Origin: Phycisphaerales bacterium | GTDB lineage: Bacteria > Planctomycetota > Phycisphaerae > Phycisphaerales > UBA5793 | Assembly (NCBI GenBank): GCA_020852515.1 | Contig: JADZAS010000037.1 | Location: 1-64,000 of the forward strand | Direction: 5' to 3' | DNA: 64,000 bases | Shown here: piece by piece, positions 40,581 to 44,184 of the stretch | Layout: each line of letters starts with the position of its first letter | How positions within the stretch are numbered: the stretch's first letter is position 1 | Position numbers and translations under genes: made by a program | The notes under the pieces: generated by a model | Seen by the model: the letters and a program-made list of their open reading frames with translations, nothing else | Told to the model about the DNA's origin: nothing | The model's database searches: none

Positions 40581-40685
40581 GCCCTCACCGGCGCGGGCTC
40601 GTCTTTGCCTCCGGGCTCGCCCGGGAATGACGCCACGCGCGGCTGGCCGCTATCATCCCCGCCTGCCAGCGGAGGATTTCGCATC

Positions 40686-42083
40686 ATGGATCGGACGCTC
40701 ATTGCCGACGCGTTTCAGAGCGGCCAGGTCGGCTCAAAAGTACGCATCAAGGGCTGGGTGCGCACGCGCCGCGACAGCAAGGCCGGGCTGAGCTTCGTGC
40801 ACGTGAGCGACGGCACGTGCTTTGACCCGATCCAGGTCGTGGCGCCCAGCAGTCTGTCCAACTACGACTCGGTCGTGCTCAAACTCACGACCGGCTGCAG
40901 CGTGGATTGCACGGGCACGCTCGCCGCGAGCCAGGGCAAGGGGCAGCGATTCGAGATCCAGGCCGAGTCGATCGAACTCCTCGGCGACGTGGAAGATCCG
41001 GACACCTATCCCATCAGCCCCAAGCAGCATTCGTTCGAGTACCTGCGCACCGTTGCGCACCTGCGGACGCGCACGAACACCTTTGGCGCCGTCGCGCGCG
41101 TGCGGCACCGCCTGGCGCAGGCGATTCACCAGTTCTTCGACGCGCGGCGGTTTCTCTGGGTGCACACGCCGATCATCACGGCTTCGGATGCCGAAGGGGC
41201 CGGCGAGATGTTCCGCGTGAGCACGCTCGATCTGCTCAACCTGCCGCGCCGGCCTGACGGGCACGTGGATTTCGAGCAGGACTTCTTCGGCCGCGAGTCG
41301 TTTCTCACCGTTTCGGGGCAATTGAACGTCGAGACCTACTGCTGCGCGCTGAGCAACGTCTATACCTTCGGCCCGACGTTCCGCGCCGAGAACAGCAACA
41401 CGGCCCGTCACCTGGCCGAGTTCTGGATGATTGAGCCGGAGATCGCCTTTGCCGATCTGCGCTATGACCGGCTGCTGGCGATCGATCTCATCAAGCACCT
41501 GCTGCGTACCGTGCTGGCGGACTGCGCCGATGACATGAAGTTCTTCGACGATCGCATCGAGAAGGGCATCATCGACGCGCTGCAGCACGTCATCGACTCG
41601 GAGTTCGTGCACCTCACCTACACCGACGCGGTGAAGGAACTGCAGGCCAGCGGCAAGAAGTTCGAGTACCCGGTCAACTGGGGCGACAACCTGCAGTCCG
41701 AGCACGAGCGCTACCTGTGCGAGCAGGTGCACAAGAAGCCGGTCGTGGTGACGGACTATCCCAAGGACATCAAGGCGTTTTACATGCGCCTCAACGACGA
41801 TGAGAAGACGGTGGCGGCGATGGATGTCCTCGTGCCGCGCATCGGCGAACTCGTCGGCGGCTCGCAGCGCGAAGAGCGGCTGGCGGTGCTCGACCGGCGG
41901 CTCGACGAGATGAAACTGCCCAAGGCGGGCTACTGGTGGTACCGCGACCTGCGCCGCTACGGCACCGTACCCCACGCGGGCTTCGGCCTGGGCTTCGAGC
42001 GCCTGCTCATGTACGTCACCGGCATGGCAAACATGCGCGATGTGATCCCGTTCCCGCGCGCGCCGCGGTTGGCGGAGTTCTAG
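40686..42083 (+). CDS. asnS: Asparagine--tRNA ligase
   Basis: A 465-residue class IIb aminoacyl-tRNA synthetase. The N-terminal OB-fold binds the anticodon ([20 protein letters not shown]). Class II motif 2 is [22 protein letters not shown], with the Asn/Ser/Asn pattern that marks AsnRS over AspRS. Motif 3 is [16 protein letters not shown]. The C-terminus ends [11 protein letters not shown], as usual. The ATG has GGAGGATTTCGC upstream. A TATCAT box 35 bases before the start may be its promoter. Confidence 0.96.
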
Positions 42084-42109
42084 ACCGAGTCAAAATCAGG
42101 GAGACGCGG

Positions 42110-42304
42110 GTGAAACGGCGGGATCTAGAACAGCATCTCCGGGATCATGACTGCGAGCGCGTCCGCCACGGTCGCCGGCACGACGTTTGGCACAACCCGA
42201 TGAATGATCGCGAATCGACCGTGCCTCGTCATCGGGAAATTGCGAATCCAACGGCGCGCGCGATCTGCCGGCAATTGGATATTCCTGTGCCCCGCGGTAT
42301 CTGA
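42110..42304 (+). CDS. hicA: HicA-family toxin
   Basis: A 64-residue protein from GTG 42110 with AGGGAG seven bases upstream. The sequence KRRDLEQHLRDHDCERVRHG through STVPRHREIANPTARAICRQ is a clear match to the double-stranded-RNA-binding-fold mRNA interferase HicA, which cleaves mRNA. The catalytic histidine is kept (GRRHDVW). Its partner hicB lies just downstream but on the opposite strand, so the two stop codons abut, which is unusual because hicAB is normally one operon. Confidence 0.82.
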   Translation: MKRRDLEQHLRDHDCERVRHGRRHDVWHNPMNDRESTVPRHREIANPTARAICRQLDIPVPRGI

Positions 42305-42532
42305 TCAGGCACTCGCGCGTCGACTGCGAGACTTCTCGACTTTCGACTGCCGATATTTCCGTAACTCTGCCATGGCGTCTCGTGCCCGCTCGAAGGCTTC
42401 GGGAATACTCTTCGCCTGCGTCTGGACCGCTGGATCCATCGGAGAGGTCACGGCGTACCAGCCCCGTCCAGCATCCTCAAGCGTCAGGACGAGCTTTCCG
42501 TCGGTCACGTTGTAGCGTTTCGCTTTCGGCAT
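42305..42532 (-). CDS. hicB: HicB-like antitoxin
   Basis: A 75-residue protein starting at ATG 42532. KLVLTLEDAGRGWYAVTSPM followed by TQAKSIPEAFERARDAMAEL is the partial RNase-H-fold core of HicB antitoxins, which bind and neutralise HicA. The longer frame adds 31 residues with no similarity. It lacks the C-terminal helix-turn-helix seen in many HicB proteins, so it should neutralise the toxin but may not repress transcription. Convergent with hicA. The last 15 residues are strongly basic (KVEKSRSRRASA). Confidence 0.72.
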   Translation of the reverse strand: MPKAKRYNVTDGKLVLTLEDAGRGWYAVTSPMDPAVQTQAKSIPEAFERARDAMAELRKYRQSKVEKSRSRRASA

Positions 42533-42621
42533 CTCGTGATCTCGGGAGATGGTATGCGATTGGCCGACTCGACTTCCAGCGCGTGACGCCGATCCATGTA
42601 CGACGCGCTCACACAAAGCCA

Positions 42622-43002
42622 TCACCGGTACTCCACCAGTTCCACCTCGATGCCATCGGGGTCGTAGAAGTACGCGCGGCGGCCGGGCTCATAAGAGTCT
42701 TCGATCTCCGTCTCGATGCCGCGCTGGGTGAGCCAGGCGACTTTGGCGTCGAGGTCATCGACGACGAAGCCGACGTGATTGAAGCCGACGCGGCCGTACT
42801 CGGGTTCGTCTAGCCGACCGGCCTCGGCAGGGTCGGCCTGGAAGAGCGCGAGATACGAACGGTCGTCGCCGATGTGGATGGCCGGCGTCTCGGGCGAGCC
42901 GGGCTCACGTCGCCAGCGGATCTTCAGGCCGAGCAGTTCGCCATAGAACTTCGCGGCTGCATCGAGGTCGGAGACGGTGAGGTTGACGTGTTCGAGCCAC
43001 AT
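42622..43002 (-). CDS. VOC-family (glyoxalase/dioxygenase fold) protein
   Basis: A 126-residue vicinal-oxygen-chelate protein with two beta-alpha-beta-beta-beta modules. MWLEHVNLTVSDLDAAAKFY and GFNHVGFVVDDLD carry the metal-ligand histidines, and AYFYDPDGIEVELVEY carries the conserved Glu. Such proteins are glyoxalase I, extradiol dioxygenases or fosfomycin-type resistance enzymes, and this one cannot be assigned further. The ATG has GGAGG upstream. Confidence 0.85.
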   Translation of the reverse strand: MWLEHVNLTVSDLDAAAKFYGELLGLKIRWRREPGSPETPAIHIGDDRSYLALFQADPAEAGRLDEPEYGRVGFNHVGFVVDDLDAKVAWLTQRGIETEIEDSYEPGRRAYFYDPDGIEVELVEYR

Positions 43003-43176
43003 GAGAGCCTCCGGAATAGCGGGTGAACGGCTTGGTTATGGAGCCTACGCGAGCAGATCGGGCGCCGCGACTAAAGGCCCGTCGGACCGGTCGAGGGAAA
43101 GCCCGAGTCGATTCAGCGGCGCTCGTTCCTACGATCCTCGCCCTGATTGGCCGGAATGAGCGGGAGAAGAAATGTC

Positions 43177-44184
43177 ATGAGCCACACCGTGTGTCTGCTG
43201 CCCGGCGACGGGATCGGCCCGGAAGTCACCGGCGCTGCGCGGCGGGTGATTGACGCGGCCGGCGCCGACCTCCAGTGGATCGAACTCGACGCCGGGGCCG
43301 GCGCGCTCGAGCGCACCGGGCACCTGCTGCCCCCGGCTACGCTCGAAGCGATCGCGCGGCACTGCGTGGCGCTCAAAGGGCCGCTGACCACGCCCATCGG
43401 CACCGGCTTTGCCAGCGTCAACGTCCAACTCCGCAAGACCTTCGACCTCTACGCCGCGGTGCGGCCGGTGCGATCGATGCCGGGCATCCGGACCCGCTTT
43501 GAAAACGTCGAGATCGTCGTCATCCGCGAAAACACCGAGGGCCTGTATTCGGGCATCGAGCACGAGATCGTGCCCGGCGTGGTCGAGAGCCTCAAGATCG
43601 CCACGCGCAAGGGCTGCGAGCGCATCGCCCGCTTCGCGTTCAACTACGCCAGAGAGCGCGGCAGGAGCAAGGTGACGGTCTTCCACAAGGCCAACATCAT
43701 GAAGATGTCCGACGGCCTGTTTATCGAGTGCGCCCGCCGCGTGCACGAGGAGATCGGTGCGGGCGTCGAATACCAGGAACTCATCATCGACAACGGCTGC
43801 ATGCAACTCGTGCAGAACCCCGGGCAGTTCGACGTGCTGCTGCTTGAGAACCTCTACGGCGACGTGATCAGCGACCTGTGCGCGGGGCTGGTGGGGGGCC
43901 TGGGCGTCGTGCCGGGCGCGAACTTCGGCGATGCGTGCGCCATCTTCGAGGCGGTGCACGGCAGCGCGCCGACCATCGCCGGGCAGAACATCGCCAACCC
44001 GCTAGCGGTAATCATGAGCGGCGTGATGATGCTGCGGCACCTGGGCCTGCGCGAGCCGGCCCGGCGCATCAAGGACGCCTATAACGCGGTCTTGACGGAC
44101 GGGAGAGCCGAAGAACTCACGCGCGACATCGGCGGCAGCGCGGGCACCACGGATTTCGCCGAGGCGATCATTCGGCGGTTGTGA
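43177..44184 (+). CDS. NAD-dependent isocitrate dehydrogenase-type beta-decarboxylating dehydrogenase
   Basis: A 335-residue member of the isocitrate/isopropylmalate dehydrogenase family. The N-terminus LLPGDGIGPEV is followed by VVIRENTEGLYSGIEH, the pattern of NAD-dependent isocitrate dehydrogenase and homoisocitrate dehydrogenase, not of isopropylmalate dehydrogenase (RELTGGIYFG). The metal/substrate block EYQELIIDNGCMQL and the NAD-binding EAVHGSAPTIAGQNIANP are complete. The ATG at 43177 has GGGAGAAG upstream. The natural substrate (isocitrate or homoisocitrate) is not settled by sequence. Confidence 0.88.
   Translation: MSHTVCLLPGDGIGPEVTGAARRVIDAAGADLQWIELDAGAGALERTGHLLPPATLEAIARHCVALKGPLTTPIGTGFASVNVQLRKTFDLYAAVRPVRSMPGIRTRFENVEIVVIRENTEGLYSGIEHEIVPGVVESLKIATRKGCERIARFAFNYARERGRSKVTVFHKANIMKMSDGLFIECARRVHEEIGAGVEYQELIIDNGCMQLVQNPGQFDVLLLENLYGDVISDLCAGLVGGLGVVPGANFGDACAIFEAVHGSAPTIAGQNIANPLAVIMSGVMMLRHLGLREPARRIKDAYNAVLTDGRAEELTRDIGGSAGTTDFAEAIIRRL

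Follow-up and report, generated by a model that had tools for sequence, protein, structure and literature searches.

A conserved convergent gene arrangement of the HicAB toxin–antitoxin family in an order of Planctomycetota

The hicAB locus and its neighbours

The analysed window, a stretch of 64,000 nucleotides from a contig of a Phycisphaerales bacterium, carries a hicA gene and a small hicB-like gene (product P0001) that run towards each other on opposite strands, as listed in Table 1; the coordinates of both agree with those of the earlier sequence-only reading. The asnS gene ends 26 nt before the start of hicA, and 89 nt separate the glyoxalase-family gene from hicB. Rfam returned no RNA family in positions 41000–44000. 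The window HicA is the sole one above the Pfam cut-off in the whole genome (G000), and up to 14 HicA matches were recorded in other planctomycete genomes.

Table 1. Features of the hicAB locus in the window and the basis of each assignment
Feature	Position	Strand	Basis
asnS, asparagine--tRNA ligase	40605..42083	+	NCBIfam TIGR00457 and NF003037 above cut-off
AGGGAG, Shine-Dalgarno-like, 6 nt ahead of the hicA GTG	42098..42103	+	read from the sequence
hicA, putative toxin gene, 64 aa; start GTG at 42110, stop TGA at 42302-42304	42110..42304	+	Pfam HicA_toxin, structural model, apparent purifying selection
Junction TGA/TCA, stop codons abutting	42302..42307		sequence; no terminator-like site there
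hicB (P0001), putative small antitoxin gene, 75 aa; start ATG at 42532, stop at 42305-42307	42305..42532	-	profile, fold, same-strand relatives
Glyoxalase-family gene, upstream of hicB on the same strand	42622..43002	-	Pfam PF00903

Identity of HicA and HicB

The assignment of HicA with its catalytic histidine kept, first made from the sequence alone, was borne out, as the protein scores 36.8 bits against Pfam HicA_toxin (PF07927; cut-off 27) and the catalytic residue, H24, is invariant in 29 aligned HicA sequences. The AlphaFold2 model (pLDDT 95) comprises a helix (residues 3–12), three strands (16–20, 24–29 and 34–39) and a second helix (46–55), with HicA of E. coli and B. pseudomallei as its best PDB matches; for models as short as these two (64 and 75 residues), the Foldseek probabilities are high and the E-values reach only 0.03–0.3.

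As a single sequence, P0001 has no HicB match in Pfam or NCBIfam, which would suit the view that the minus-strand frame is no HicB and that hicA stands alone. Against that view, E. coli HicB is matched in the PDB at 2.8e-6 by a profile built from 10 members of the subfamily, and 18 of 48 relatives hit PF15919 with E-values of 0.1 or lower, the best being 1.3e-6. The AlphaFold2 model (pLDDT 86), with strands at residues 6–10, 15–22, 25–29 and 37–40 followed by one long helix (43–74), has HicB antitoxins as its best PDB matches (probability 0.96–1.00, E 0.1–0.3), and close relatives of P0001 sit in ordinary same-strand pairs with hicB ahead of hicA, so that a frame unrelated to HicB appears very improbable. 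The model lacks the strand with which the HicB fold, a partial RNase H core of the form beta-beta-beta-alpha-beta, usually ends.

No helix-turn-helix (HTH) or ribbon-helix-helix (RHH) domain was matched in P0001, and a protein of 75 residues without a DNA-binding domain fits, in size and type, the Class 2 HicBs of Gerdes (63–103 codons). The sequence-only reading had noted the missing DNA-binding tail; the absence is real, and it is not linked to the convergent layout, nor does it by itself account for it, because same-strand relatives lack the tail too and the lack is a published trait of the class.

Recurrence of the convergent layout

Searches with P0001 covered 392 genomes of the phylum and 400 of the order, together with one scan of 84,980 species genomes, and recovered 17 distinct convergent pairs, nearly all planctomycete, and 24 same-strand pairs or fragments of the same subfamily. 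The convergent orientation with adjoining stops is thereby confirmed both for the window, where 0 nt lie between the two stop codons, and as a recurrent layout, and the proposed search for further convergent hicAB in planctomycetes proved positive. In the window's order, the genes are convergent in all 14 genomes in which both were found, and these belong to four families, namely f1 (G000, G372 and G393); f3 (G077); f4 (G478, G502 and G448); and f5 (G750, G625, G635, G637, G647, G653 and G755). An orientation unique to a decayed locus, which the earlier reading had allowed for, is excluded by this recurrence. Same-subfamily relatives elsewhere are tandem, and since the tandem loci L064, L067 and L074 come from bins labelled Phycisphaerales, Phycisphaerae or Phycisphaera, convergence may not be the only layout in that class.

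Sixteen of the 17 convergent pairs overlap or lie within 6 nt of each other (-10 to +6 nt), the gap being 0 nt in the window genus and L060; -4 nt in a large marine group, L057 and L091; -10 nt in L056; +2 nt in L061; +6 nt in L065; and +36 nt in L088. Among background convergent gene pairs, a gap of at most 6 nt was observed in 1 of 28, versus the 16 of 17 hicAB pairs, where some of the 28 background pairs span hicAB itself, which adds long gaps, and where the hicAB pairs are mutually related, so that the counts are not independent trials. A control set of 70 loci with an ordinary Pfam HicA was obtained from a search of 246 Planctomycetota genomes and consists of the best-scoring matches rather than a random draw; here hicB was on the same strand for 72 of 72 ordinary planctomycete hicA genes, with none convergent, in the order hicB>hicA in 54 and hicA>hicB in 18. 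Loci from the window's own order (G185, G198 and G220) are included in this control.

Most of the convergent loci derive from metagenome-assembled genomes, from which an assembly or binning artefact might be suspected; the same layout is present in many separately named genome projects from at least four families and with differing flanks, and the chance of such an artefact is regarded as negligible. One contig in a record titled Gammaproteobacteria bacterium (L073) is probably a binning error, because it is about 91% identical to the marine planctomycete contigs L075 and L079 over hicAB and the flanks. Other observations from these searches include L016, a single open frame with HicB joined to the last approximately 25 HicA residues, probably a deletion fusion; and L087, a Myxococcales bin with two near-identical tandem hicB>hicA copies about 4.5 kb apart. 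A phage origin was unsupported, viral contigs yielding only one distant relative (37% identity).

Selection, decay and origin

Purifying selection appears to act on both genes, with dN between the window and L055 of 0.135 for hicA and 0.19 for hicB at a saturated dS of 2.5–3.9. Pairwise distances of HicA and HicB are correlated (r 0.72, 29 pairs; r 0.58 and Mantel p 0.0005 among 10 convergent lineages), for which common descent alone accounts in part. Decay was also observed: six loci (L065, L075, L045, L091, L054 and L063) have a broken or lost hicA, with hicB mostly open; in L045 hicA carries a premature stop and the remnant still ends in the same 4-nt overlap, and in L063, which has lost hicA, hicB points towards asnS across 35 nt. 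Some of the frameshifts may stem from errors in draft assemblies. Loss of the toxin with survival of the antitoxin is ordinary for such modules. In L054 (G396, of the window genus), another open frame replaces hicA and reads into the last hicA codons, with hicB intact.

The flanks of the pair differ among lineages: the window genus has asnS, the marine group fructose-bisphosphatase, L060 and L088 hisF, L061 pyrF, and L056 a glycosyltransferase. The asnS neighbour is nevertheless common to three families, being found in the window genus (f1), L065 (G750, f5) and L063 (G511, f4), which argues for old inheritance. A tree of concatenated HicB and HicA, in which 20 of the 24 same-strand pairs or fragments were used, requires four layout changes for the convergent pairs (bootstrap range 3–5), and the AU test does not reject a single convergent clade (p 0.113); the tree thus neither demonstrates nor rejects a single origin of the layout. 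The simplest route would be for one gene of a hicB>hicA pair to have inverted in place.

Such an inversion could be old and without regulatory meaning, leaving two independently transcribed genes in a decaying module, retained solely because the antitoxin is indispensable for as long as the toxin remains. The six losses or breakages of hicA beside mostly open hicB frames, and a gap length that varies from -10 to +36 nt, speak for a neutral rearrangement of this kind, and the purifying selection apparent on both genes, the order-wide persistence of the layout and the tightness of 16 of 17 junctions speak against it, so that this account stands at about an even chance.

Transcription and regulation

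A shared transcript of hicA and hicB, and with it operon co-regulation, cannot operate, since the genes are convergent; this point of the sequence-only reading stands, and for this family regulation as a textbook toxin–antitoxin operon is impossible. None of 18 loci has an intrinsic terminator at the junction, so the mRNAs of the two genes likely overlap at their 3' ends. Convergent genes with no terminator between them are arranged as in an excludon.

The best -10-like score upstream of hicB averages 4.2, against 2.7 in shuffles, and that upstream of hicA is 2.8, not above the 3.2 of its shuffles; no full sigma-70-like promoter was found in the window stretch, including near hicB. A same-strand gene precedes hicA in 14 of 17 loci, and in the window the short distance from the end of asnS, with AGGGAG ahead of the GTG, indicates that hicA may be read through. 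A position of hicA always at the tail of a housekeeping operon was rejected as a rule in view of the exceptions L060 and L088, and the nearest same-strand gene called upstream of hicA in L057 lies 928 nt off. In the marine group, a conserved palindrome, GCTATGATATAGC, was observed about 30–45 nt upstream of the hicB start and about 270 nt from the junction (L043, L045, L070, L073, L075 and L081), and it could be a promoter or operator.

The layout might itself have been selected for an excludon-like dual control, in which hicB transcription acts in cis against hicA through RNA polymerase collision and RNase III cutting of the duplex, an RNA layer added to protein neutralisation in place of autoregulation. 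Consistent with such control are the junctions of -10 to +6 nt in 16 of 17 pairs, the absence of a terminator at every junction, a HicB without a DNA-binding domain, and the description of convergent genes without a terminator as an excludon type (PMC7154746). The tight spacing may, however, be mere inheritance from overlapping hicB>hicA genes, and the tandem relatives, also without a DNA-binding domain, manage without the layout, so that we consider this control rather unlikely. A tail-to-tail type II family operating as an excludon, with the antitoxin mRNA as a cis antisense brake on the toxin mRNA that would replace the missing autoregulation through DNA binding, is likewise considered rather unlikely.

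The reading preferred here, and held to be probable, is that of a genuine HicAB module without a DNA-binding domain, composed of separately transcribed tail-to-tail genes, derived by inversion and inherited in the order. By family and fold, HicA would be an mRNA-cleaving toxin and HicB would mask its active site by direct binding, a neutralisation proposed because HicB masks the HicA histidine in solved complexes of the family (PMC11594946). Transcription of hicA would probably come from asnS read-through or a weak promoter of its own, and that of hicB from its own promoter, the HicB having no domain for the usual autoregulation; as no intrinsic terminator separates the genes, the 3' ends of the two mRNAs would overlap, and hicB transcription may, speculatively, also damp hicA in cis. 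At least one inversion of a single gene within a hicB>hicA pair would have produced the layout, and its observed conservation suggests inheritance in this planctomycete order. In favour of the preferred reading stand the Pfam match of HicA and its invariant H24, the profile and fold matches of HicB, the 17 convergent pairs set beside the same-strand control genes, the apparent purifying selection, the correlated distances, the asnS neighbour common to three families and the terminator-free junctions. Counted against it are the lack of a HicB-model match for P0001 as a single sequence, the missing last strand, the six broken or lost hicA genes and the lack of a full sigma-70-like promoter near hicB in the window. 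At this locus a known toxin–antitoxin family has a new gene arrangement, which is conserved and is decaying in several lineages.

Comparison with known systems

Small HicBs without a DNA-binding domain make up Classes 1 and 2 of Gerdes (2024), whose two-gene classes are operons, none of them described as convergent; the regulation of Classes 1 and 2 was named there as an open question, no such module having been tested experimentally (PMC10865869). The words 'convergent', 'orientation' and 'opposite' do not appear in the text of a 2024 review of HicAB, and no report of convergent hicAB was found in the open-licence literature, which is no proof of absence. The window pair shares with Class 2 hicBA a small HicB (63–103 codons) without a recognisable DNA-binding domain, a small HicA and tight packing of the genes; it differs in that Class 2 has hicB upstream of hicA in one operon on a single strand (PMC10865869), whereas in the window and 16 further pairs the genes lie stop to stop. 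With the classical hicAB operons of Classes 3 and 4 (E. coli, Y. pestis and B. pseudomallei), the HicA fold, the catalytic histidine and, probably, the neutralising core of HicB are held in common, but the HicB of those operons has an HTH or RHH domain and acts as an autorepressor, and here there is neither domain nor operon.

In this branch, the conserved convergence of the genes excludes co-transcription as an operon; it also provides a natural comparison, between near relatives whose largely similar proteins are encoded in tandem in some and convergently in others. Should the 3' overlap have a regulatory effect, the locus would unite RNA control of a type I-like sort with protein control of type II. 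An excludon-type toxin–antitoxin pair of this kind was not found described in the open-licence literature. Excludons with 3'-overlapping convergent mRNAs (PMC7154746, Figure 3b) are alike in having no terminator between the convergent genes and differ in that the transcript overlap here is a predicted one. Reversals of gene order in hipBA likewise changed the order of toxin and antitoxin genes several times in evolution, but the reversed pairs are still described as operons (PMC8262856); at the present locus the proteins are of known kind and the gene arrangement is new.
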